Positions 2,875 to 64,000 are shown, counted from the stretch's first letter. The stretch: DNA of 64,000 nucleotides from an uncultured Planctomyces sp. (GCA_937904325.1 CALGTK010000457.1:1-64000); one strand, 5' to 3'. A program made the numbers and translations. Notes: generated by a model not told the origin, from the sequence alone.

Positions 2875-3164
2875 GTTCTTACTGACTCTCGGCTCTCAGC
2901 CCACGACCGCATCCTCATACTGACCGACATCGAAAACATGACCAAGAGAATTGGCAACCGAGCCGCATTGAACGATGTCTTCGGGAGCCTGCATGGGAAC
3001 AAGCTGCTGCCGCACCCATGCCATCAAGATTGCAGGCGATGGAATGCGAATACATTTCTCGATAATGGCCGATCTTCCATCGAAAATGCCCCGCCGGTTC
3101 GACGGAGCAGTATGTTTTGACGTGACTTACTGGAACGATTCTCGTGACTCAAAGAGCGTAGCTA

Positions 3165-4034: not shown

Positions 4035-4478
4035 TTGATTCTCCATTCGAATGGTCCTGACAGGTGTCCGGTGTAGTTCCAATTTTCGACACTGAAGCTT
4101 TGGAGAAACACCAGCCAGCCCATAAGTTGATATCTGCTGTCCCCAATGGGACTATTCGGAACAATCGTGGATACCCGCCCATACGAGCAGGGTAAATCAT
4201 TACAAAACAGAGTCTGGCACGGAGCAGAGAACGAACAGGCAAACGGTACCGGACAGATAACGATTGCCGACGAGGTAAGTTGTGACGCGCATGAGAAAGC
4301 TGAGGGGCACGCGAGCTATCTCTCGTGGCTGGCTGTGTTATGAAAGCGGCCACCAGACAAACAGCGGATTTTCACAAAGCCACTCCCGGAATACATGGCG
4401 GTATTCCAGAACACTCGCAGGAATGAACTTCTTGCCACAACTGAGTGGTGCTCTACCAACACCACAAGAATTGACCTG
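4035..4478. other. Intergenic stretch, no gene seen
   Basis: Open frames on either strand lack family signatures, good starts and ribosome binding sites. On the minus strand this is the region downstream of the sulfatase stop and upstream of the barrel gene, so it should hold a terminator and a promoter, but I cannot pin either down. Confidence 0.4.
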
Positions 4479-5990
4479 CTAATAGTCAGCCGTCGTCAAA
4501 CTGTTTAGAACGGACTGCTGCCATTCTCGCAGTTCCTGCTGCATTGCCGATGCGACTTTCGGTTTGGCGGCGACCAGGTTTTTCGATTCCGCGGGGTCGT
4601 CTCGCAGATCGAACAGTTCGCTTTTGAGTTCTCCGCCGCGGTTACTTTGCACGACGAGTTTGTAGCGGTTGCCGAGGAGCACTCTTGAGCCGGCGAAGTC
4701 GTCGTCAACGATGGTCGAGTGGTGATAGTTCTTGAAGTTTCGGGTGTAGATGTCGCCCATCATTTTAACGAGAGGCGTCGTTCCTTGCTGGAACTTTGCG
4801 TCGATGTACGGTTTGTTCTTTGCTTCAGCTCCCGTAGAGAATGCCCAGAAGCCTACCGGTTCCGGGCGTTCCGTCATGTTACCATCGATCACTGGAGACA
4901 GACTGATGCCGTCGAGCGGTCGATCTGGGATGGCCGTGCTGGTCAACGTGCAAAGTGTCGGCAGGATATCGCTGGTGATTGCGTTAACTTTAGATGTTAC
5001 AGGTTTACTGATCTTTGCTGGCCATTCGATGACGCCGGGCACTCGGAGACCACCTTCGTACATGTTTCCTTTTTGCCCACGGTACGGGGATGTGACGATA
5101 CCGTCACCGGGTGTGCCATTGTCGCCGCAGTACCAAAGGAGTGTGTTGTCGCGGAGACCTTGCTGCTGAAGCCAATTACGAAGCTGACCGATCGAACGGT
5201 CCATCGCAGTAATTTCGGCGTACCGTTCCTGCAGTACATCGCGAAGCGGTCGTCTGGTTGGTCGCCCGGTTTCGTTCGACGTCAGTCTGACTTGCTTATC
5301 TGCGTATGCGGCGGGCAGGTCGTCGTACAATGCAAGGTCTTTTTTGAGGCCGCTGTAGGGTTCGTGAGGAGACCCGAACCAGACGACGGTAAAGAATGGT
5401 TGCTTCTTTTGCTGAGCCGTCGCCAGAAACTTGATCGTTTCGGCAATCACTATCTCAGAACTTTCGCCTTCAAACTTCTGAGGCTTGCCTCCGTTTCGCG
5501 AAAAAACCGGATCCAGTTCAAAGAAATTGTCATGAGACAGCCATTCGTGAAAGCCCATCGCTCCGGGGTTTGTTGGTGATGAAGATTTGACAGGACCAAG
5601 ATGCCACTTGCCGAAATGACCGCAGATGTACCCCGCCTCATTTAAGAGATGGGCAATCGTGACTTCTTCCGGACGAATCGAATAACCCGGCGAGAAAGTT
5701 CCGTAGCGATTTGGGTGCCGGCCGGTCATGACACTGCCGCGCGTCGGCGAGCAGGACGGATGTGCCGAATAAAACCGATCAAGCCGAAGTCCTGTCGAAG
5801 CCATCTCGTCCAGCACCGGCGTCTTGAGATGCGGATGCCCGTTGTACCCGGTTTCGTCCCAACCATGGTCATCTCCCATCAGAAGAATGATGTTAGGACG
5901 CTCCGCGGCGAGAGTGGGGTCGACAACTGCACACAGCACTACAACCATGGCAAGTTGAGGTAGACTGATGAGGGACTTCAAATGGTTCAT
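4479..5990 (-). CDS. Secreted formylglycine-dependent sulfatase (arylsulfatase family)
   Basis: Hydrolyses sulfate esters, probably on sulfated polysaccharides, in the periplasm or outside. 503 residues from ATG 5990, preceded by AGGAAAGCC. A signal peptide covers about residues 1-28 (ending TLAA). Metal-binding Asp40-Asp41 lie in ILLMGDDHGW. Residues 80-85 (CSPTRG) are the C-x-P-x-R-G motif whose Cys80 is converted to formylglycine, followed by SVMTGRHPNRYG. A second metal-site block is LLWYCGDNGTPGDG. An anaerobic-type or FGE maturase must be encoded elsewhere. Length is normal for the family. The next gene on the same strand encodes a DUF1080 protein, a common planctomycete pairing for glycan breakdown. 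The substrate cannot be predicted. Confidence 0.95.
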   Translation of the reverse strand: MNHLKSLISLPQLAMVVVLCAVVDPTLAAERPNIILLMGDDHGWDETGYNGHPHLKTPVLDEMASTGLRLDRFYSAHPSCSPTRGSVMTGRHPNRYGTFSPGYSIRPEEVTIAHLLNEAGYICGHFGKWHLGPVKSSSPTNPGAMGFHEWLSHDNFFELDPVFSRNGGKPQKFEGESSEIVIAETIKFLATAQQKKQPFFTVVWFGSPHEPYSGLKKDLALYDDLPAAYADKQVRLTSNETGRPTRRPLRDVLQERYAEITAMDRSIGQLRNWLQQQGLRDNTLLWYCGDNGTPGDGIVTSPYRGQKGNMYEGGLRVPGVIEWPAKISKPVTSKVNAITSDILPTLCTLTSTAIPDRPLDGISLSPVIDGNMTERPEPVGFWAFSTGAEAKNKPYIDAKFQQGTTPLVKMMGDIYTRNFKNYHHSTIVDDDFAGSRVLLGNRYKLVVQSNRGGELKSELFDLRDDPAESKNLVAAKPKVASAMQQELREWQQSVLNSLTTADY

Positions 5991-51534: not shown

Positions 51535-52300
51535 TCAGTTCGCGGATTGCTGGATCGATGGGTTCGCAAGATTAGCAGCGGTCGAGTCATATTGGTCCGA
51601 TTTAGTCCGGTCTCGGAAGCCCATCGTGCCGGCTGTTGCTTTCAGCCAGTGAGCAATATAGCCGACGGTTTCGAGGTCTCCGTTCTGCCACGCAATCTGC
51701 AATTCTTCCACTTCGGATTTTAGTTTGTCGACGAAGCCAGGAATGATCTCCCGAAACTCCGGATCATCGAATGGCAGTTCGGAGGTAATTGGTTTCCGCG
51801 ATCCAGCCGACGACTGAAGATTCACTGTCAGCTCTGGAGGAAATATTTTACATGTATCGTTCGGGTCACCGCCCTGGGAGTATTCAACCCGGCTGAATTC
51901 GGCGTCCAGAGATCTCGCGACGTTTAAAGCTTCCATCGGATCTGTCGGAGGAAGCTCTACAGGCATCGCAATCGGTGGTGCGTCCTGCTCCACCGGAGTT
52001 CGACATGCCGAGGAGTAAACCGTATTGGTGATTGTGCTTTCCAGTATTACTGGCTGATCGAGATATTCAGTTTGCTGAGCCGGGGCGTCATACATTCCTC
52101 GGCGCGACGCTTCGGTAAACCCGAGCATGGCATTTATCGGTGTTTGGATTTCGTGGCTCATGTTGGCGACAAATTAATTTTTCGCCGGGCTGGCGCTTTG
52201 CAGAATGCGATCTTCCAGATCACTCAGGCCCAACTGGTACGTGGCAGCGCCGTCGGCCCCCTTTGCAGGCAGGTCGATCGTCGCAGCAGCCGACAAACGG
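51535..52300 (-). pseudogene. Gutted hybrid histidine kinase (H-box joined to Hpt)
   Basis: Reading leftwards from about 52300: the end of a PAS/PAC-like region (LPAKGADGAATYQLG, SDLEDRILQSASPAKN), an in-frame TAA, and then FVANMSHEIQTPINAMLGFT, a normal phospho-acceptor H-box. After that the ATPase (N, G1, G2 boxes) and receiver domains are missing. About 100 low-similarity residues lead to an Hpt domain (IIPGFVDKLKSEVEELQIAW, YIAHWLKATAGTMGF), with its phospho-His in AHWLKA. A large internal deletion plus a nonsense codon explain this. Without an ATPase it cannot autophosphorylate. Confidence 0.85.
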
Positions 52301-52738
52301 GCTTTCTGATGGAACATGAGCAGCCGCATCGGAGTCTGTCACAAAACGATGTCTGCGCAAAATTGAACGACTTGTGATTCTGCGCCGTCTCTGAATCGCT
52401 GCGGCGACTGACCAGTCCATTCCAACGGAATACGGATACCCGTACAGCGAGATATCGCAAATGAGCAATTAGGCAGCATGCGAGTCCTGCAGGGAGTTCG
52501 GGGGAAATTGCCGATTACATTAAATGTTCGGATCAGCCAATCTGCACCGAACTGCCAGGGTTTTCCGAATTTATTGATTCTGCAACCACGAACGGCTGGC
52601 GAGTAAATACCTCCGTTGCCGATCAGACGAGAGACCATTCATTGAGTGCGCATCGCCCGGCGTGGCGACGGCTTCTGAATCTGCAGTCGTCGATCCGACG
52701 ACCACTCAGGAATCAACACAATCGGAAATCACCGGGTA
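52301..52738. other. Divergent intergenic region, no gene seen
   Basis: Upstream of the outer-membrane efflux gene and behind the decayed kinase. It probably contains the lost 5' part of the kinase gene and the promoter of the TolC-type gene. Frames here are short and unrecognisable. Confidence 0.4.
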
Positions 52739-55700
52739 ATGAAGTTTCGCACCATCACAGTCTGGGTCGCTCTGGTTTCGACCGGCATGTTGTGCCTGGC
52801 GGTCGGTGCTGTCCGGATTCCGCGAAAGCCCAAACCTGAGTCTGAAAGGCGGGCGACGGACCGGAGCGGCGAATCTGCAACGGTTCCAGTCATACCGATG
52901 CGAGCTTCGTCCCCGGCTGCCACGAACGTCTCAAGCTCGAACGGCGCGACTCGGACCTCGACGCAGTCTCAGCTACCGTTCCAAAAGCAGAGGCAACAGT
53001 CACTCCCACGGCAACAGCAGCAAATCGAGGACTTTGGTCGCCGACCACCTGCCGAACGATTTGCTCAATCCAGATTCGGTGCGGTCGGTAAGTTTGTGAC
53101 ATCATCTTCAGGCGTGCCTTCGAATGGCCAAAGCCAGCAACAACTCGCCTATCAGGAGCCCGAGGTGTGGCCATTCCACAGAAAGTCTAACAGTGGATCA
53201 GGACACTCGTCGCAAACATGGTCCACACAAGAATCTGCCGCACAAGTCCCACCCAATTCTAAAAACAAGCCCCGAGTCGAAGACTGGCCTTACCAGCCAT
53301 CAGCTCGCGAAGCGGTCAACACTGGAACAGTCCAAACGGCGAATGCTAATGCACCAGCTAACTGGCCAACTTCCGCGTCAACGTCGGGGGCAGGGCAATT
53401 GGGTGGTCTGTCCGTGGAGCAGTTCCCAGCAAACACCCCGATTGATTCCTTCAATCAACGATCCGACTTCGCCGCCGCTCAGCGAAGGATACTACAATCT
53501 CAGGTGTCGCCTGAACGCGGTCCGACACCACACAATCTGCTTGACCCGTCGCTTGCCTTTGGCGGCATTCCAACCAACAGAGCAAACTTCCAACCACAAC
53601 ATTCAAAGCAGACGAAGTCGCGATCAACTTACGCGCCAGCTCAATCGCAAGATCAGCCAGTAATTACAAACGACTTCGAGATCACGCAACCTCAACATTC
53701 GCTTAGTCGGATGACGGAGCCATTCGCGGATCATTCAGCGCCGACGACAAGTGGGTCGATTGCCGCGATGCCAGTCCCATCGTCAGTTACGACGCCTGCC
53801 CCTTCGCCATCGCTTGCGAATCTTCCGGCACCAGCACCTACACCAGCGCAAGCAAAGAACGGACTGGAAGCAGGGCACGCCGGCACTGGCAACCGAGTCA
53901 TTCAGGCTTACGCTGATTCCGTGACGCCTCGTAATTACGTCACCGTCGGTCAATGGTCTGGACCGCAGAACCGACCGGTTCAGTCGATTCAGCGAGTCAG
54001 TTTCGAAGCCTGTCCAGATTGCGAGGACGTCAATCAAGTTCCGGCTGAATCGTTGATCAATCCTTACGTTGCGAGAGCAACCAACTATCCAGAGCGATCG
54101 TCGATGCCTATCAGCGATGGCCAGTTAGTCGAGTTGCCACGAGACTACGCTCCCTGGTGGGAAGAGGTCATCAACAAACCGTTGCGGATTGCTCCATCGA
54201 CTCGTCCCGTCAATATTGAATCGCTCATCCTGGAAGCGATCGAGCACTCGCCGCAGGTGACTGCCTTTCGCATCGATCCAATCATTCGTGAAACTCAGAT
54301 TCTCGAAGAAGCGGCCGAGTTCGACTGGCAAACGTTCCTTGAAACGAGGTTTGACGACAGCAACGACCCGATTGGCAACGTGTTGACCACAGGTGACAAC
54401 TCCGATCGCTTTGCAGACAAAAATTTCAGCAGCCGACTTGGCCTTGAAAAACGCATGGCTCAAGGGGGAACACTGGACGTCACGCAAAGCTTCGGTTTGC
54501 AGGATAATAACTCAACGTTCTTCACACCTCGAGATCAGGGAACGTCGCGGATCGAATTAAACTTCACACAGCCACTGCTGCGAGGAGCGGGGCAGACATA
54601 CAACGAGAGTCGCACGATTCTGGCAATGCTGGATTATCAGATTTCAGAAGATGATTTGCAGGACAACCTGCAGGATCATCTGCTGGAAGTTTACACGACC
54701 TACTGGAATCTCTATCGGGCCCGCGCTGTTCGCCTGCAGAAAGAACGTCTTCTCCGGAGGGCGATCGACGTCGAGCAAAAGCTTACGGCACGGCGGGGCA
54801 TCGACTCCGTCAAACGACAAGTGCTGCGTGCTCGCGCGGCAATTGCCAGTCGTCGGTCAGAAATCGCACGGGCAGACATGGAAGTTCGCAATTCCGAATC
54901 ACGGCTCCGGTTACTGGTGAACTCGCCCGGTTTGAAACATAGCACCGTTGTTGAGTTGTTGCCGGTTGAAGCTCCGATGTCAGAACACCTGACTGTGTCA
55001 ATGCGAGGGTCAGTGGAAACCGCGCTGCAAAACCGTCCGGACGTTCGACGTGCCATTACTCAAATGAAAGAAACAGCAATTCGTCTCGAAGTCTCGAAGA
55101 ATGAACTTCTACCAAAACTTGACTTCGTACTTGGCACCTATGTTGCGGGTTTACGAGGCAAGAGTCAGATCGACACGGCCTGGACAAACCAGTTTCGAGA
55201 TGGACGACCCGGCTACTCGGTTGGCCTGATGCTCCAATATCCGCTCGGGAACCGAGCGGCCAGGGCACGATACGCCAAACGCGAATGGGAAGTGGCAAAG
55301 ACTCTGAAAGAGTTCGAAGCCTCAGTTGAATCCAGCATGTCGGAAGTCGAACTGGCGGTGCGAGAATTTGAAACGTCGTATCAGGAAATGCTCAGCCGCT
55401 TCCAGTCGATGATTGCTGCGGACACCGAAGCCAACTACTTGCTGGAACGCTGGCGTCTGTTGCCAGGCAACGACCAGACGACAAGTTTCCTGCTGGAAGA
55501 TCTGCTTGACGCTCAGGAACGCGTCGCGGTGGAAGAACAGGATTTCGTCGAAGCTCAGGTGGCGTACGTTCTCTCAGTGGTTCGCGTGAAGCGAGCCTCC
55601 GGGATTCTATTGAGTTGCGACTGTGGCAACTCACCAGTCTCGTTCATGACTCCGGCGCCGCGAGGGCTTGCTCTGCCACCGCCCCACCCGGCTGGCCAAC

Positions 55701-55894
55701 GCCCAGCGTTGCCAGCGACACTTCCGGCAAATGCAAAACTGACTCCCCCCGTGCCGGTGCTTTCGGCACCTCAAACGTCGGCCGCTCCACGTGCAACAAC
55801 GCCTCAACCGTCGAAAACCTCGCTGGGCCAGCCGTCAATCATTCCATTGCCGGGACCCGCTCCTCTGTCAGTGCCCGCCAGATCGCAACTGTGA
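52739..55894 (+). CDS. TolC-family outer membrane efflux protein with long N-terminal extension
   Basis: Outer-membrane channel of a type I or tripartite export system. 1051 residues from ATG 52739. A signal peptide (VWVALVSTGMLCLAVGAV) is followed by some 450 residues of Gln/Ser/Pro-rich low-complexity sequence. The TolC domain covers about residues 485-955: VNIESLILEAIEHSPQVTAF, LNFTQPLLRGAGQTYNESRT, RPDVRRAITQMKETAIRLEV and KLDFVLGTYVAGLRG are typical. A Pro/Ala-rich tail of about 95 residues ends the protein. The usual TolC is about 450-490 residues, so both extensions are notable; they may cross the planctomycete periplasm or cell wall. It is directly upstream of the SecA-like and M50/HlyD pseudogenes and is intact. 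Confidence 0.92.
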   Translation: MKFRTITVWVALVSTGMLCLAVGAVRIPRKPKPESERRATDRSGESATVPVIPMRASSPAATNVSSSNGATRTSTQSQLPFQKQRQQSLPRQQQQIEDFGRRPPAERFAQSRFGAVGKFVTSSSGVPSNGQSQQQLAYQEPEVWPFHRKSNSGSGHSSQTWSTQESAAQVPPNSKNKPRVEDWPYQPSAREAVNTGTVQTANANAPANWPTSASTSGAGQLGGLSVEQFPANTPIDSFNQRSDFAAAQRRILQSQVSPERGPTPHNLLDPSLAFGGIPTNRANFQPQHSKQTKSRSTYAPAQSQDQPVITNDFEITQPQHSLSRMTEPFADHSAPTTSGSIAAMPVPSSVTTPAPSPSLANLPAPAPTPAQAKNGLEAGHAGTGNRVIQAYADSVTPRNYVTVGQWSGPQNRPVQSIQRVSFEACPDCEDVNQVPAESLINPYVARATNYPERSSMPISDGQLVELPRDYAPWWEEVINKPLRIAPSTRPVNIESLILEAIEHSPQVTAFRIDPIIRETQILEEAAEFDWQTFLETRFDDSNDPIGNVLTTGDNSDRFADKNFSSRLGLEKRMAQGGTLDVTQSFGLQDNNSTFFTPRDQGTSRIELNFTQPLLRGAGQTYNESRTILAMLDYQISEDDLQDNLQDHLLEVYTTYWNLYRARAVRLQKERLLRRAIDVEQKLTARRGIDSVKRQVLRARAAIASRRSEIARADMEVRNSESRLRLLVNSPGLKHSTVVELLPVEAPMSEHLTVSMRGSVETALQNRPDVRRAITQMKETAIRLEVSKNELLPKLDFVLGTYVAGLRGKSQIDTAWTNQFRDGRPGYSVGLMLQYPLGNRAARARYAKREWEVAKTLKEFEASVESSMSEVELAVREFETSYQEMLSRFQSMIAADTEANYLLERWRLLPGNDQTTSFLLEDLLDAQERVAVEEQDFVEAQVAYVLSVVRVKRASGILLSCDCGNSPVSFMTPAPRGLALPPPHPAGQRPALPATLPANAKLTPPVPVLSAPQTSAAPRATTPQPSKTSLGQPSIIPLPGPAPLSVPARSQL

Positions 55895-55978
55895 GTGCAG
55901 CCCGAAAACTCATCGTTCCGAATTTGCGAACCTGCTCCGGCTGTTACCGAACAATCAACTCTGGATTCAGCACAAGAG

Positions 55979-56881
55979 CATGATCGGATTCACAACGAAG
56001 AGTCGCCAGGTTCGAAGGGCCGCAAGTTCGGCTCGATCTGACGTGTACTCGTGACGGCCATTCGTCGTATGGAAGCCGAACCTGGAAATGCCAGCCATCA
56101 GAAGCTGAAAGATCGTGCCGACGAACTGAGGGCCCGCCGCTTTCAACGGAAACCAGACTGGTTGTCTGCTGATGTCCTGACGGAAGCGTGTAGCCTTGCT
56201 TGTGTGGCTGCAAGACAAACACTCGGTCACGGTCTTGACGATGTGCAGCTGCTGGCTGGCCTCGCGATGGCCCGAGGCTCTGTCGCTGAGATGGCAACTG
56301 GCGAGGGGAAGACGTTTACGGCCGCAATTCCTGCTTTCATTCATTCGCTGTCAGGCCGTGGCGTTCACGTCAACACTTCAAACGAGTATCTCTCGCATCG
56401 CGACTGTGAGCAATTACAGCCGTTGTTCGAGTTTATCGATACTTCATGTGCAGACATTCGTACGCAACAGGAACCCGCTGACAAAGCGGCTGCCTACCGC
56501 TGCGACATCACCTACGGCGCCGGTGCCGAATTTGGATTTGATTATCAGCGTGACCAGATCACACTTCGGCAGACACCGGAAACGCGGCTTGGAGCAGATC
56601 TCCTGGGACTTCTTCGAGGTCACGAGCAGGTTCTGCAACCGACTTTCCAACGCGGACTTTCAGTAGCGATCGTCGATGAAATTGACAACGTCCTGATCGA
56701 TCATGCCGGTTCTCCACTTCTGCTGTGCGGCTAGCCGGACGGTCTTGCAACAGACGCGGAAGCTCACCTCGCGGCGTTGAATCTGGCTAACGATCTGCCG
56801 GCAGGTCATGACTTTCACGTCGACTCTGGCATGGGCTCAATCATCCTGACAGATGCCGGCAAGACGCGTATCTGGGAAGCG
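55979..56881 (+). pseudogene. SecA-like translocase ATPase, truncated and interrupted
   Basis: The gene appears to begin at ATG 55979 (MIGFTTKSRQVRRAASSARS) and changes frame near 56045. It then continues from 56051 with AIRRMEAEPGNASHQKLKDR. Walker A (EMATGEGKTFTAAIPAF; Gly at 56300), the SNEYLSHRDCEQL block, DITYGAGAEFGFDYQRDQ and Walker B IVDEIDNVLIDHAGSPLLL are all classic SecA. A TAG at 56732-56734 interrupts CG|PDGL. The same frame then shows HVDSGMGSIILTDAGKTRIW, the start of the preprotein cross-linking region, and breaks off near 56880 where the next gene begins. More than 500 residues of a normal SecA (about 800-900) are missing. It is a diverged paralogue, not the housekeeping SecA. 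Confidence 0.88.
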
Positions 56882-56882
56882 C

Positions 56883-58708
56883 ATGACAACGCTCGTCGAA
56901 CGCCTCAATCCGTTCTGGTTGAAGCTGCCGTTCGGAAAACCCGACGGTCTCATCAGTAAACTGTTGCCGTTGACATGCTGGCTGCACTCATGGGCGGCGA
57001 CCATCGCTTCGTCGTTGATCTGGCTGGCGGCGGCGATCGCGATTACCAGCAATTGGACTCGCTTCGAATCTTCCTGGCCAACGGTTCTACACCGATCTAA
57101 CTGGCTATGGCTGGGAGTTTCCTGGGTATCCCTGAAGATTATCCACGAACTGTCTCACACTGTCGCCTGCCGACGACACGGTGGGAAAGTCCGTGACTCG
57201 GGAATCATTTTATCCTGCTCGCCCCGGTTGCCTACGTGGACGTGACGTCCTCACTGAGCTTCCCATCCCGGTGGCAACGCATTCAGACGGCCGCTGCAGG
57301 AATCTATGTCGAACTGACGGTCGCCGCGTTGGCCGCTATTGCTGGAACAGTGACCGGCTCGCCGTTGTTGTCGCATCATCTGGTCAATCTGATCTGGTCG
57401 ACAAGCGTTACAACGTTCGTCTTCAACGCCAACCCACTAATGAAGTTCGACGGGTACTACATACTGTCCGACCTGCTGGATCGACCGAACCTGTACACGA
57501 ACAGTTCGCTGCATCTTCAGCGAATCGCAAACCGTGTTTTCTTCGGATCAAAGACTGACAGTGTGCGAAGTTCGCGGCAGGACGCGTTGTTACCGGCCAG
57601 CTACGGCGCGGCAGCTTTTGTCTGGCGGATGCTCATTTGTGTTGGGTTGCTGATTTCAGCGTCGATGATGTTTCACGGAGCCGGGATGGTTGCTGCGGCG
57701 GCCGGAGTGCTGCTGTGGTTCGGTCAGCCGATTCTTCAACTGACGCGAAAAATCTGGCACCGTGCACGACTCGATCCGCAAGAATCGCTGCAGGCAATCG
57801 TGCTGAGTTCTGCCGTCACTGCTGTTTTGGGAGCGTTCCTGTTTCTGGTTCCGTGGCCGGCGGGGGCAACCGCGCCGGGTATTATTAATCACTGGGACCT
57901 GGCCGTTGTCCGAGCTGAGACTCCGTGCTTTGTCCGGAACATTCAGGTCGCCGATGGCGAAAGAGTTTCGCAGGGACAACTGCTGATCGAACTTGAAAAC
58001 GAAGAACTGGCCAACGAAGTCGCCGACATTCGAGTGGCGATTCAGCAATCCGACATTCGTCGGAGTCAGTTCATCCGTTAGCACGAAACGGCTTCCGTCC
58101 AGGTGGCAACGAAAAACCACTCGTCGTTGCTGAAGCGTTTGACCGAGAAACAGCAACAGGCCGATCAGCTGACGGTGCGAGCTCCAGTCGCCGGCCGATT
58201 CATGTCTCGATCGCTCGTCTGGGTCATTGATACGTACGCTAAGCCGGATACCGAACTGATCACAATCGGCGATGACTCTCTCAAGGAGCTGCGAGTCAGT
58301 ATTTCGCAGGACGATGCTCGCTGGTTGGATACAGCCACGAAACAGGCTGATGGGAAAACCTCGATTGATGTCCGACTTCGTTCTGTCGGAATCACTAAAG
58401 GGACCGTCCGCCGCATTTTACCCGAAGCGACTCGAACTCCACTCCACGAATCGCTTACCGCGCCAGCCGGTGGGCCGTTGGCCGTGAAAGCGAACTCTGA
58501 CTTAGAGTCAGGTTCGGAAGTCGTACTGAGCGATCCCCGAGTCACTGCCGTTATCGACATTTCCTCTGACGTCGCCGCCAGAATCCCGGCAGGTTCCTTC
58601 GGCCACGTCTGGCTGAAAACAGAATCGGCACCCACAATCGCCGAAGCCGCCATCCGCCTCGCGACTCGCTGGGTCGAATCCAAATTCGAAGCGGCCCAGG
58701 CCGACTGA
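56883..58708 (+). pseudogene. M50 membrane metallopeptidase / HlyD-type adaptor fusion, interrupted
   Basis: Starts at ATG 56883 (MTTLVERLNPFWLKLPFGKP). Transmembrane helices surround the zinc site HELSH (His88; nucleotides 57144-57158). A one-base frameshift at about 57210 moves the frame to LLAPVAYVDVTSSLSFP. The second M50 motif, NANPLMKFDGYYILSDLLDR, and further helices follow. A biotinyl-lipoyl half-motif (VRNIQVADGERVSQGQLLIE) begins the HlyD part. TAG at 58079-58081 interrupts QFIR|HETASVQV; the frame then runs on through TEKQQQADQLTVRAPVAGRF to the HlyD beta-barrel end at 58708. Uninterrupted, the product would have about 608 residues. Such site-2-protease/HlyD fusions occur beside TolC-type genes in other planctomycetes, as far as I recall. 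Confidence 0.88.
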
Positions 58709-58793
58709 CCGCGTTTGATGAAACGTCTGAATCAGTTGGCGGATATTGTGAACCTGCCGCGCAACTGGAGACGGCTAATGTCGTTGAGGCTTT

Positions 58794-61751
58794 TCACAGC
58801 GTCTTCCGGCAACTTGTGCGCATTCGCCGAAGAATCGTCAGGATGGCCGGCAGCGGAACAAGCGAGACAAACAGGCAACTGCCGACGCCAATAACGAGCA
58901 CAAGTCCGACGCTGTAAAGGCCTCGGTGTGCAGCGATCATCATGCTGCCAAAGCCGATCATCGATGTGAGAGATGTCAGCACAATCGCATTCATCGTACT
59001 CGGCGAAATTCGGTAAGAGCCTGGCTGCGAATGGAAGTCGTGCAGCACGTGGACTCCGTCGTCGACTCCGATTCCAAGAATCAATGGAAGCAGAATCAGG
59101 TTCGCCGGATTAAAACTGATGTCCAGTGCCGCCAGAACGCCATAGGAAAGCACACCACCCAGAACCGGTGGCACCAAAGCGAGCATTGTGAACAGGATAC
59201 TGCGAAAATTCAGCACGAACGATATCGACAACATCAAGGTCATAAACGACGCGAGTACGATCCACCAGTTGACGTCTTCCGTTTTTAAAAACTGAGCAAC
59301 CGCCACGCAGCCAGTAATGATGAAAGCAGGCAGCAGCGTCTTAAGGGCGCCATCTGGTCCCAGGAAATTGACCAGCAGCACGAAGGTTACAATGACCAGT
59401 GCGTAGACCGCGGCGTGCTGATAACTCTGCATGATCTGTTGAGACGCTTCGTAATTCTGCAACGGGGTGCCTGTCACTTCAGGATCGACAGTTCTTACGT
59501 CATTGACAAAATCCCGCAGAGGGTCGATATCCCAGATTGGTTTTTTCGGATAGACCTGCAGAAGCCATCGACCGTCGCTGCTGACAAACCGAGACGCCAA
59601 CGCCGAAGGAAGGTCTTTGATTGTAACTGGATCTGTATCCGCAGACTCTGCCAGCAACGTCATTTGCGTGAGCAACGATGCAGTGAGTCGCTGCTGGTAC
59701 TCGGAAAGAACCGTCAGTTGTTCTTCCAACTCGAGTGGGTCCAGTGAGTCCAGCAGACGGTCGATCGAGGCCGCTGTTGCTTTTGCCTGTGGGCGACCCA
59801 TTTCGCTGGTTCGAGTAAAAATTTGCTCGAACATCCGGCCTACCAGGTTTGGATTGATCAGCGGTGGAGGTGGCATCTCGGTCGGCAGTCGCGCAAGTTG
59901 AGCATTGAAACCCTGGATCAGCAACTGCGTTTGCTCGGGCGGAAACTCTGGTAGCCGGGTGGCAAGTTCTTCGACATGATCGACTGATACCAGCTTTTCA
60001 AATTTCGCCTTGAGCTGCCGAGCTTCTCTCGCATTTCTCGCCACAGAAACTGCAAAGAGGAGCGAGTCCTTGCCTGCGCGATTGCCCTCGTTGCTTCTGT
60101 CAAATATTCGACGTTGAATTTCAACAGACTCCAGCCCGTCGGCCTGCAGATTCAGCAGGTTGTAGTCGTAACCAACTGCCGATTGCAGACGGCCATCGCG
60201 AAAGGTGATTCCTTGGCGCCCTACTGCCGCAATTGCCACCAGAGAAGCGATAGCCACAAGACATGGGAATCGATGAATAACCATTCGGAATGCGTCGCCC
60301 TGAAACGGAGTCGGCAGTGCCTGATGTTTCAAACCTCGATCAGCGACGGTTACGAGGGCTGGCAGAACGAGGAACGTGGCCGCGGTACAGATCAGAACTC
60401 CGCTGCCAGCAATCAGACCCAGTTCTGCAACGCCCAGAAACTCCGTAAAGGATGCGCAGTAGAAAGCGAGCGACGTGGTGACTGCGGCGGTAACGATTCC
60501 AACTCCAACGCTTGCCGAACTGGACAACAAGGCTGGTCCGAGATCATCGCCGTGATGCCTTAGTTCGAGGTATCGGGCCAGGTAGTGGATTGCGAAGTCG
60601 ATCCCCAAACCGATCAGAATTGCAGCAAAGGACACGGACAGAATATTGAGATGTCCGATCGCCAAAGTAGTGAAGCCGAAGGTCCAGCACATCCCGACCG
60701 CCAGCATCACCATCGCCAGAAACGGATGCTTCCAGCCTCGAAATCCGACCAGCAGAAGGATCCCCACAAACACGAATGACAGAAGTGACGCGCGAATCAT
60801 GTCATTCTGGGAACGACGCATTTCGTCATTTTCAAGCACCGGAATTCCTGTCAGGCCGATGTTAACTTCCGGATGCTGTGGGCGGACGTTGGCAATTAAC
60901 GCTCGGAGTCGATCGATCGACTTCGTCGCACCGTTGAAGTCGCCTTCGCGGTGTACAGGGCGAGCTTTCAGAAACCCGATCGTTCCGGATTCATTCATCA
61001 AATAAACGACGTCGCCACTTTCACGTTGGAGTTCAGGGTCGACGGAAAGAACCTGCGGCCAGGGACTGATGAACTTGCCTCGCGCCGCAAAGTGATCAAT
61101 GCTCGCTGCCAGCCGTTCAGTCTGACTCAGAATTCCGATCAGTTTCCGTTCGGCGTTCGCAGTCTCCATCGGAGTTAAAGGATCTGCCGCAACTGATACA
61201 TCAGAACTTGCCGCGAGTTTTCGAGACAAGTCATTGACCTGGAACAGGAGCGACGTTGCGAACAGGTCGATCCGCAAACGATTCCAGCCACCGTTGAGAA
61301 TTGGCCGAAACTCTTCAAGATGCTTCAGACCCTGCTCAAGTTGGGTCGGGCTTAGATATTGCAGCCCCTTCCGCTTCAGGCTGCCTGTCTCAACTTTGAA
61401 GAGAACCTGATCGAACAGGTCTGGCTCTGCCGCCAGCCGGTTCCCAAGGTCCTCCATCACCGCTTTAATGGCGTCAGGACGTCGGCCCTCGGCGACAACG
61501 ACAAGGTCAGAGCTGTCACCGAACGATTCGGTGAAGCTGGTCCAGCGCTGGTGGAAGTCGGCAGTTGGATCGATCAGGTCAGAACGCTGTGTCCGAAAAT
61601 CGATGAAGAAAACGGTGATCAAGACGGCGGCGATTACCGACAACGCCGTTACCGCCAGAGTCAAACCTGGACGCGAACAAGCAGCTTCAGTGACCGCGCG
61701 CAGCGGCCCGCTGAGGTGAAACGGGCGAGCTTCGTCGGTCCGTTCTTGCAT
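58794..61751 (-). CDS. MMPL/RND-superfamily exporter
   Basis: Proton-driven inner-membrane exporter of lipids or hydrophobic compounds. 985 residues from ATG 61751 (MQERTDEARPF); a longer frame begins at 61793. The layout is the duplicated RND pattern: one helix (LTLAVTALSVIAAVLITVFF), a periplasmic domain of about 280 residues, a bundle of helices (SFAAILIGLGIDFAIHYLAR; LIAGSGVLICTAATFLVL), a second periplasmic domain, and a second bundle (LILLPLILGIGVDDGVHVLH; IGFGSMMIAAHRGL). The GIDFAIH and GVDDGVH motifs carry the proton-relay aspartates. Similarity is greatest to the HpnN/MMPL branch. It lies 3' to 3' with the M50/HlyD pseudogene, so a functional link is not supported. Confidence 0.92.
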   Translation of the reverse strand: MQERTDEARPFHLSGPLRAVTEAACSRPGLTLAVTALSVIAAVLITVFFIDFRTQRSDLIDPTADFHQRWTSFTESFGDSSDLVVVAEGRRPDAIKAVMEDLGNRLAAEPDLFDQVLFKVETGSLKRKGLQYLSPTQLEQGLKHLEEFRPILNGGWNRLRIDLFATSLLFQVNDLSRKLAASSDVSVAADPLTPMETANAERKLIGILSQTERLAASIDHFAARGKFISPWPQVLSVDPELQRESGDVVYLMNESGTIGFLKARPVHREGDFNGATKSIDRLRALIANVRPQHPEVNIGLTGIPVLENDEMRRSQNDMIRASLLSFVFVGILLLVGFRGWKHPFLAMVMLAVGMCWTFGFTTLAIGHLNILSVSFAAILIGLGIDFAIHYLARYLELRHHGDDLGPALLSSSASVGVGIVTAAVTTSLAFYCASFTEFLGVAELGLIAGSGVLICTAATFLVLPALVTVADRGLKHQALPTPFQGDAFRMVIHRFPCLVAIASLVAIAAVGRQGITFRDGRLQSAVGYDYNLLNLQADGLESVEIQRRIFDRSNEGNRAGKDSLLFAVSVARNAREARQLKAKFEKLVSVDHVEELATRLPEFPPEQTQLLIQGFNAQLARLPTEMPPPPLINPNLVGRMFEQIFTRTSEMGRPQAKATAASIDRLLDSLDPLELEEQLTVLSEYQQRLTASLLTQMTLLAESADTDPVTIKDLPSALASRFVSSDGRWLLQVYPKKPIWDIDPLRDFVNDVRTVDPEVTGTPLQNYEASQQIMQSYQHAAVYALVIVTFVLLVNFLGPDGALKTLLPAFIITGCVAVAQFLKTEDVNWWIVLASFMTLMLSISFVLNFRSILFTMLALVPPVLGGVLSYGVLAALDISFNPANLILLPLILGIGVDDGVHVLHDFHSQPGSYRISPSTMNAIVLTSLTSMIGFGSMMIAAHRGLYSVGLVLVIGVGSCLFVSLVPLPAILTILRRMRTSCRKTL

Positions 61752-61834
61752 GCATTTATTCGTGTCTGGGTAGTTCCGGTGCGTCGGATACATGGCTTTC
61801 GGAATATTTTCCCAAGCCTGTCAAGGATACTCGC

Positions 61835-62782
61835 TCAGGAAAACAGTCCGCTGACAGATTCGGCTCGATGAATTCTGCGAATTGCTTCGCCCAGCAGCGG
61901 AGCGATGGATACGACTCGTAGATTGTCAAACTGTCGCTCAGGAGTGATCGGCAATGTGTTCGTGACGACAACTTCAGTGATCGGAGCGTTACTCAGCTTC
62001 TCAATAGCCGATCCGCAAAACACAGCGTGCGTTGCACTGACGTAGATTTCTCGAGCGCCCAGATCTTTGGCAACCTGTGCCGCACCGACGATTGAGCCTG
62101 CCGTTGAAATCATATCGTCAAATAACAACGCCACCTTGCCTTCGATTGGGCCGCCGATGATGTTGGCCTGCCGAGTCTCAGTGGCACTGGAGCGACGTTT
62201 GTCAACAATCGCAAACTGCCCGCCGAGATTCGAAACGTGCTTCAGAGACCTCTTAATACTTCCTTCGTCAGGGCTGACAATGACGAGGTCTTCCGGCGGA
62301 ATTTTCAGCGAGCGGAAATACTCGTCTGTCGTGCCGGCTGCGTATAGATGGTCGACCGGCACATCGAAGAAGCCCTGAATCTGTGCGGCGTGGAGGTCGA
62401 TTGTCACCACTCGGTCAGCTCCGGCTTTCGTAATGAGGTTGGCGACAAGTTTTGCCGTGATCGGAACTCGGCCTGAATCTTTCCGATCCTGTCGAGCGTA
62501 TCCGTAGTAAGGAATGACTGCCGTGATGCGTTCAGCGCTGGCTCTCGCGCAGGCGTCGATCATGATCAGCAACTCCATCAGATTCTTGTCAACCGGCGGT
62601 CCGGTCGGCTGAATCAGAAATACATCCCGGCCTCGGATGTTTTCGTCCAGCTTGCAGCTGATTTCTCCGTCGGGGAAATCAGCTAACTGAACGGCTCCAA
62701 GGTCGAGACCAAGATGCTGAGCAATTTCGGCAGCGAGGCCGCGGTGGGCGCGTCCGCTGAGCAGGACAAGTCGATCGTACAT
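61835..62782 (-). CDS. prs: Ribose-phosphate pyrophosphokinase (PRPP synthetase)
   Basis: Makes PRPP from ribose 5-phosphate and ATP for nucleotide, His, Trp and NAD synthesis. 315 residues from ATG 62782, exactly the usual family length; in-frame starts at 62821 and 62941 would add a non-conserved extension. Motifs are FPDGEISCKLDENIRGRDVF (ATP loop), YYGYARQDRKDSGRVPITAK, VVTIDLHAAQIQGFFDVPVD (divalent-metal and ribose site) and the PRPP loop LLFDDMISTAGSIVGAA. It also supplies the PRPP substrate used by the beta-RFAP synthase encoded at 29001. Monocistronic here. Confidence 0.97.
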   Translation of the reverse strand: MYDRLVLLSGRAHRGLAAEIAQHLGLDLGAVQLADFPDGEISCKLDENIRGRDVFLIQPTGPPVDKNLMELLIMIDACARASAERITAVIPYYGYARQDRKDSGRVPITAKLVANLITKAGADRVVTIDLHAAQIQGFFDVPVDHLYAAGTTDEYFRSLKIPPEDLVIVSPDEGSIKRSLKHVSNLGGQFAIVDKRRSSATETRQANIIGGPIEGKVALLFDDMISTAGSIVGAAQVAKDLGAREIYVSATHAVFCGSAIEKLSNAPITEVVVTNTLPITPERQFDNLRVVSIAPLLGEAIRRIHRAESVSGLFS

Positions 62783-63598
62783 GATGGTTCCGTGGTTGCC
62801 GCGAATGATTGGTTCGGGCATGTTGGCAGGCCGCCCCTGCTTGATGCAATTCAAACGGCCCCCTGAAACAGCGAAAGACAAAGTTCCCGCGGCGGATCGC
62901 TCTTTGTGATTCAATAGCGACAGGCGATCAGGGCACCGCAATCAGGAATGTTTGCCACAATTTGAACCGCAGCTACGTGTTCAAACGGCGAACACCGATC
63001 AACAACGGTTGATGCCACTCGCCTGCGACTGCGTTGCGCTGTTTATGTGTCATGTCTGACCCAGCAGCGATCACCTGACTTTCAGGAAAAATACAGCCAG
63101 TCGTTATGACTGGTGATTTAGAACGTAATCTTCACAGACGTTATCTGGCACGAACGATGATCTGAAGATGCTCGACTGATAGGATTGGTATCGCGGCCGA
63201 TTTTTCTTATCACTCTGAACGAAACAGATTAGATGAATTATCGAGACTTTCGGAGTCGTTACGGCGATGCTGACAAGACGAATGGTAATAGCTGCACCTG
63301 ACTGATGGATCAATTGTCATGAGCCGGCAATTCCGCAGGCATTGGTGGAACCCGCATGCTTTCCCAATTGAATTGCAACGGGTATGGCCACTGACTAGCG
63401 TTAAGTCCGATTACGGAAGATAGGGGCGAGCACGAACAACGTAGGAACTGAAACGTGTGAGCATTCACATTTCGTGATGATATGCGTTCGGATTGTGTTC
63501 CCGGGCGGAGAAGTCAAGACAAGCAAACAGTTCTGGTCGGATGGAGTTCTCCTTGAGTTAATCCGTGTCAAGCACGGTCCTCTCACAAGATAATTGTA
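62783..63598. other. Divergent intergenic region, no gene seen
   Basis: This 816-base stretch separates the leftward prs gene from the rightward partial gene at 63599. Small frames (up to 70 codons) have no signature. It must contain both promoters. Tracts around 63100-63260 are AT-richer than the surrounding genes. I find no tRNA-like cloverleaf or riboswitch that I could defend. Confidence 0.4.
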
Positions 63599-64000
63599 AT
63601 GACAACCGAATCTCAGGTTGCGGCCGGCAAGGAGCCAGCGACGGAACCTCGACTCGAAATCAGCGGGTCACGACAACTTACAAACTGGATGGCTGACAAT
63701 AAGGTCAGTCTCGGATTCACCACTTATCAAACCGGCAAGGTGTTCCTGATTGGCGTCAAGCCTGGGGACAAGCTTTCGGTCTTTGAACGTACATTTAATA
63801 GATGCATGGGGCTTTGCTCGGACAACGACGGGCAGACGCTCTGGATGAGTTCCCTTTACCAGCTTTGGAGGTTTGAAAACGCTCTCGAGCCGGGGCAGTC
63901 GGCAGACGGGTACGACCGGCTGTACGTTCCCCAGATCGGTTACACCACGGGAGACATTGATGTTCACGATGTTGCCGTCGAATCAAGTGGGCGCGTCGTA
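63599..64000 (+). CDS. TIGR03032-type conserved protein, 3' end outside window
   Basis: The frame starts at ATG 63599 and is still open at the window end, giving 134 residues. ISGSRQLTNWMADNKVSLGF, TTYQTGKVFLIGVKPGDKLS, FNRCMGLCSDNDGQTLWMSS, LYQLWRFENAL and PQIGYTTGDIDVHDVAVESS match the N-terminal part of TIGR03032 (DUF4915-like) proteins, which form a beta-propeller-like fold of unknown function and often occur with glycosyltransferase or TPR genes. No signal peptide is visible. The ribosome binding site is weak. Confidence 0.8.
   Translation, partial: MTTESQVAAGKEPATEPRLEISGSRQLTNWMADNKVSLGFTTYQTGKVFLIGVKPGDKLSVFERTFNRCMGLCSDNDGQTLWMSSLYQLWRFENALEPGQSADGYDRLYVPQIGYTTGDIDVHDVAVESSGRVV

Follow-up and report, generated by a model that had tools for sequence, protein, structure and literature searches.

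Does a planctomycete locus with a TolC-type channel gene and, behind it on the same strand, a SecA paralogue and a single-chain M50 peptidase/HlyD adaptor hold the remains of an export machine, and if so, what did this machine export? The question was raised by a 64,000-nt stretch of DNA from an uncultured Planctomyces sp. (GCA_937904325.1 CALGTK010000457.1:1-64000; referred to as the window), for which an original prediction, made from the sequence alone, had proposed a SecA-powered TolC/M50-HlyD system with two of its three genes broken. The gene content it described was recovered (Table 1). The TolC-type gene is intact, its product having long low-complexity or disordered extensions at both the N- and the C-terminus. 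Both Walker motifs could be located in the SecA paralogue, and the third gene contains the HExxH and NxxxxxDG-type motifs of M50 peptidases along with HlyD lipoyl and HlyD_3 halves. Our analysis supports the view that the window carries a decayed five-gene export operon plus the stub of an adjoining giant-protein gene, i.e. a system in loss.

Table 1. Features of the locus, in order of position in the window
Feature	Position	Strand	Remarks
HisKA/Hpt histidine-kinase-like fragment	51535-52161	-	directly behind the cargo stub
Stub of LEPR-XLL-type giant-protein gene (candidate cargo)	52174-52329	-	51 codons, MRLLMFHQKARL...LSDLEDRILQSASPAKN*
TolC-type outer-membrane channel gene	52739-55894	+	intact, 1051 aa; Pfam OEP (PF02321), E 1.6e-22
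Secondary SecA gene remnant	55971-56890	+	DEAD/Walker part only; 3' half deleted
SecA_DEAD match (Pfam)	56051-56734	+	E 8.7e-59
Walker A, ATGEGKT	56294-56314		SecA remnant
Walker B, VDEID	~56672-56689		SecA remnant
Stop codon TAG	56732-56734		SecA remnant
M50 peptidase/HlyD adaptor remnant	56853-58708 (56880-58708 from the deletion junction)	+	three pieces
4219-bp deletion junction	56880-56894	.	blastn against G003 (L045) and G005 (L046)
HELSH	57144-57158		M50/HlyD remnant
1-bp deletion (frameshift)	near 57211		M50/HlyD remnant
NPLMKFDGYY	57431-57460		M50/HlyD remnant
Stop codon TAG	58079-58081		M50/HlyD remnant

The operon in related planctomycetes

When 40 related genomes were searched at the protein level, SecA paralogues and M50/HlyD proteins were found to share contigs, lying about 5.4 kb apart. 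The gene order in congeners is TolC-SecA (661 aa)-HlyD (296 aa)-HlyD (648 aa)-M50/HlyD (~730 aa from an overlapping start; 730-780 aa among the intact homologues of relatives). In genome G003, all five genes are open and form one block on one contig (locus L045), and in G004 they are intact over two contigs, of which one has TolC and SecA and the other the adaptors and M50/HlyD, with the 296-aa HlyD gene interrupted by the contig end. The same order is near-intact in G001 (SecA frameshifted) and G005 (TolC damaged), and recurs in G011 and G017 at 42-60% identity. Thus, intact homologues of the three genes are indeed neighbours in relatives, and the extra genes for which the original prediction had suggested looking are, at intact congener loci, two HlyD adaptors and a divergent giant gene. 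Conservation of this gene set is far beyond chance.

The window TolC gene is orthologous to L045 3436-6603. Its SecA remnant shares 87% amino acid identity with the intact 661-aa SecA of G003 and is nearest to the secondary SecAs of congeners with a 661-677-aa frame. Downstream, an MMPL gene and a gene that we take to resemble ribose-phosphate pyrophosphokinase are common to the window, G003 and G005.

The G001 lesion is a 2-bp deletion at L047 ~2580, the M50/HlyD gene remaining open; in G005, the giant gene and tolC have both lost their 5' ends and run into one another, interior to interior, at L046 ~4361-4482, either as a real lesion or through faulty assembly. Since G001 has kept its cargo genes despite the frameshifted SecA, and the G005 lesion is a different one, some of these breaks may be assembly errors. 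Elsewhere in the genome of the window (G000; C278, C374, C93 and C51) we found two further secondary SecA genes without an adjoining M50 gene and two more M50/HlyD genes.

A known module and its SecA

A SecA_DEAD/M50/HlyD/OEP neighbourhood has been described by Kamneva, Poudel and Ward in 2015 (PMC4452313) for Planctomycetes, Verrucomicrobia and Proteobacteria, with OEP present only sometimes and with a third protein that has a GAF domain in most, but not all, loci. The proposal of a distinct machine therefore holds insofar as the genes belong together, whereas their association is not new, and we rejected the idea that it was unreported. The window copy belongs to this secondary SecA_DEAD module, which combines a secondary SecA lacking SecA_SW, an M50-HlyD protein, further HlyD proteins and sometimes an OEP. 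The M50 + HlyD protein is present in the window (as a remnant) and in relatives, and the further HlyD/biotin-lipoyl proteins (296 and 648 aa) are present in intact congeners and deleted in the window. The window copy differs from the 2015 module in being broken, and in that paper neither a cargo nor an association with LEPR-XLL nor a domain resembling a RiPP recognition element (RRE) is named. Pfam detected no GAF domain in two HlyD homologues (L045 9501-11444 and L048 10115-12178).

SecA_DEAD, PP_bind and P-loop domains were found in 26/26 secondary SecAs and SecA_SW in none of the 26, whereas the canonical SecA of the window genome has it; for the window copy, whose own C-terminal half is deleted, the absence of SecA_SW rests on its orthologues. 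Like Gram-positive accessory SecA2, the module protein is a second SecA beside a housekeeping one, with a reduced wing/scaffold region, but it is linked to HlyD/TolC and not to SecY2, and it scored below the cut-off of each of the SecA2 models TIGR03714, TIGR04221, TIGR04397 and NF012136.

A scan of genome contigs yielded 80 M50/HlyD loci from many phyla, in which the arrangement HlyD-HlyD-M50, with or without SecA, recurs. Within 44 well-flanked loci, SecA was present in 26 and absent from 18, so "SecA-powered", as originally proposed, cannot fit every member. SecA and M50/HlyD nevertheless co-travel in Gammaproteobacteria: 12 of 143 sampled genomes had a strong M50/HlyD match, and at least 10 of these 12 list a short secondary SecA, mostly directly adjoining M50/HlyD. 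SecA is also absent from the otherwise complete operon of a Thalassospira marina plasmid (L209 15681-22487), where genes for LEPR-XLL, DUF3467, HlyD, M50/HlyD, HlyD and TolC stand in a row; this operon is a natural test of the need for SecA.

Alphaproteobacterial operons (L195, L199, L200, L209) carry a small DUF3467 gene which separates the giant gene from the adaptors, and a 112-aa ORF beside a planctomycete locus (L054 4672-5010) possibly looks similar; it is possible that DUF3467 is another component of the module. In a gammaproteobacterium, a divergent SecA_DEAD protein (G120:C215:45279-46154; 573-aa frame, 96 bits) was seen beside two M50/HlyD-like matches.

Giant LEPR-XLL proteins as candidate cargo

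In G003 and G004, giant ORFs are located upstream of, and divergent from, tolC; their N-termini read LSELEDRILLSASP. This resembles the LEPR-XLL domain of NCBIfam (NF012209), an N-terminal LE.R.LL motif of giant repeat proteins; the planctomycete version, LEDRILLSASP, stays just below the cut-off of 17 bits in all three neighbours compared (15.2, 15.6 and 16.3 bits). In the G003 giant gene (L045 ~2957-3030, minus strand) a stop occurs within the first codons, ahead of an alternative start.

The stub in the window shares 68% identity (E 1.5e-9) with the first 54 residues of the giant protein that is intact in G004 and is the only match to that N-terminus in the window genome, which is 99.87% complete. 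Beyond its 51 codons follows unrelated histidine-kinase sequence, the remainder of the giant gene being gone, and the second G003 giant has no match in the window genome either. Full-length members are kept in G001, G003 and G004, so that machine and cargo gene were lost together in the window genome relative to three congeners. The window genome does retain another giant gene, with the looser motif LEDRMLLTA (L215).

As the 24-residue LEPR-XLL model is too insensitive for sub-threshold matches in whole genomes, these were searched with IUPAC DNA patterns and reversed-pattern controls. A motif scan of ORF N-termini within 1.63 Mb of module loci gave 21 ORFs with LEPR-like N-termini, compared to one for the reversed motif, loci close to one another not being fully independent. 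Most of the 21 adjoin the module, either next to OEP in divergent orientation or immediately behind M50, HlyD or SecA, and those that do span Planctomycetes, Verrucomicrobia, Kiritimatiellae and Gammaproteobacteria. The strict motif (the pattern with final S[AG], fixed from the match list before the M50 search) occurred in 7/11 genomes with strong M50/HlyD versus 1/131 others among 142 non-seed Gammaproteobacteria (p 1.3e-8, or 2.5e-5 if all pattern matches are counted; p-values ignore phylogeny). No motif match was obtained in the four genomes of family f1 that have canonical SecA only (p 0.003). On annotated plasmids, the module operon comes after a giant gene of 10-39 kb, and in all eight operons whose upstream giant gene could be read the motif was present, two plasmid matches (H7 and H9) having been left out of the count because the record edge cuts their operons. 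NCBI gives the name LEPR-XLL to three of the eight giants, from Alphaproteobacteria, and the other five were assigned by reading the motif, which in one of them lies upstream of the annotated start and in another in a split gene.

The association of the module with LEPR-XLL-type giant proteins is thereby established, and these proteins are the probable cargo. A search of open papers retrieved none that joins LEPR-XLL to the SecA/M50/HlyD/OEP module.

The M50/HlyD protein

The M50/HlyD protein of G001 was modelled with AlphaFold2 (pLDDT 90.5). For its C-terminal part, the matches are MexA, MacA and AcrA, and a fold search with the full-length model returned only membrane fusion proteins among the best 50 matches listed. 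The N-terminal 101 residues were therefore modelled alone (pLDDT 90.4). The best matches of this model were the leader-binding domains of TbiB1 and TfuB1, both with leader peptides, and of CteB, although at a moderate level (best E 2.5e-3, probability 1.00, TM ~0.6). Sequence profiles point to PqqD, with weak matches in 7/14 members, and NCBI names the plasmid homologues "PqqD family". At the level of predicted models, resemblance of the N-terminal domain to a RiPP-recognition fold can be regarded as established.

HExxH is invariant in 53 members, across which the NxNPLxxxDG-type motif is conserved as well. Similarity to the daptide intramembrane metalloprotease (NF041824) was found for the M50 part, at E 5e-50 and 170.6 bits against an equivalog cut-off of 300. 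A leader-binding domain, an intramembrane protease and an adaptor in one chain would suit a protein that recognises an N-terminal leader and cuts it.

Proposed machine and alternatives

With a probability of roughly 0.68, we propose that the window contains a pseudogenised secondary-SecA/M50-HlyD/OEP operon which was lost together with its giant cargo gene, and that the intact machine exports LEPR-XLL giants as follows. The cytosolic PqqD/RRE-like N-terminal domain of M50/HlyD would bind the hydrophilic LEPR-XLL leader of the giant repeat protein, and the membrane-embedded HExxH site would cut it. The envelope would be crossed through a conduit made of the HlyD part of the same protein, the TolC-type protein and one or two additional HlyD adaptors. 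At loci that have it, the SecA-like ATPase would drive the protein chain. Canonical SecA uses its wing/scaffold domain at SecYEG, and the ATPase of the module is without this domain. Binding and cutting of the leader by M50/HlyD is what the domain order suggests, and a role of SecA as the motor that supplies the force appears plausible. We lean slightly towards the more general proposal in which several phyla share a trans-envelope pathway dedicated to giant proteins, with or without a SecA-like motor, and LEPR-XLL serves as the N-terminal signal for export and processing, read by the RRE-like domain of the M50/HlyD fusion.

Classical type I secretion (HlyB-HlyD-TolC) likewise combines, within an operon, adaptors of the HlyD type with a TolC-type channel. 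The module differs in that its candidate signal is N-terminal and its intramembrane protease is fused to the adaptor, and none of the ORFs at the G003 locus, which is intact, encodes an ABC transporter. Nevertheless, the giants might cross the inner membrane via canonical SecYEG or another type I route, with M50/HlyD only trimming or anchoring their N-terminus at the envelope. M50 proteases commonly process substrates already inserted into the membrane, and the many loci without SecA would fit such a route, as would a published Vibrio LEPR-XLL protein that also has C-terminal RTX domains (PMC10868602). We nonetheless consider this unlikely. According to a simple hydropathy scan, 16 of 17 motif-bearing N-termini are devoid of a hydrophobic signal segment (maximum 15-residue mean 0.5-1.7); a standard Sec signal is thus improbable for most, as judged by hydropathy rather than by a signal-peptide predictor, although the Gimesia-like cargo candidate of L054 has a transmembrane helix before the motif, which counts against the export proposal. 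With three adaptors plus TolC, moreover, the trans-envelope set is complete, and Gammaproteobacteria inherit SecA jointly with M50/HlyD.

A considerably less probable alternative is that M50/HlyD, HlyD and TolC export a small RiPP-like peptide and that the giant gene is merely a frequent neighbour. It draws on the likeness of the M50 core to the daptide metalloprotease and on that of the N-terminal domain to the RiPP recognition elements of TbiB1, TfuB1 and PqqD. The daptide score is far under the equivalog cut-off, though, and the module differs from daptide and other RiPP systems in the fusion of its protease to an HlyD adaptor and in the size of the neighbouring candidate substrate: what recurs next to it is a giant LEPR-XLL ORF, with co-occurrence and co-loss at the genome level.

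Decay of the operon in the window

The window was compared with its relatives by blastn. Two blocks align with G003, 52184-56894 and 56880-64000; window position 56894 corresponds to L045 7604 and 56880 to L045 11809, which gives a register difference of 4219 bp. The missing segment comprises the 3' half of SecA, the 5' portion of M50/HlyD and, between them, the 296-aa and 648-aa HlyD genes. As 4219 is not divisible by three, an in-frame SecA-M50 fusion was rejected. The histidine-kinase fragment right behind the stub indicates that a second rearrangement seems to have taken the body of the cargo gene. Two broken genes had been predicted, and both are broken, by the deletion, two stops and the 1-bp frameshift; the loss is larger than noted at first, as the deletion took two adaptor genes as well and the cargo stub had been overlooked.

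Substitutions were evaluated in a three-taxon comparison of changes unique to the window lineage, at codon positions 1+2 versus 3. The (1+2)/3 ratio was 0.97 for both SecA and M50/HlyD, as opposed to 0.26-0.46 for the same genes in sister lineages (p 6e-4 and 2e-6). For TolC it was 0.67 (p 0.026), i.e. the frame is open and constraint mildly relaxed. The adjoining MMPL gene had a ratio of 0.38, which does not differ from that of its sister lineages. Since the ratio approaches 2 in a fully neutral history, SecA and M50/HlyD were under constraint until fairly recently. That the lesions are draft-assembly artefacts and the organism itself has an unbroken operon is very improbable: the genome is a 488-contig draft, and single lesions at the operon locus occur in other drafts of the genus, but substitution at positions 1+2 is raised in both remnants and not in the flanking MMPL gene, the deletion has a single clean junction of identical size against both references (G003 and G005), and the cargo gene is gone as well.

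Implications

While the module itself has been known since 2015, what is new here is a candidate cargo and a candidate signal for it. LEPR-XLL proteins are among the largest in bacteria, and the literature searchable here yielded no export route for them; linking them with the module gives both a testable role. A lineage such as that of the window, in which machine and cargo have both been lost, provides a natural control.
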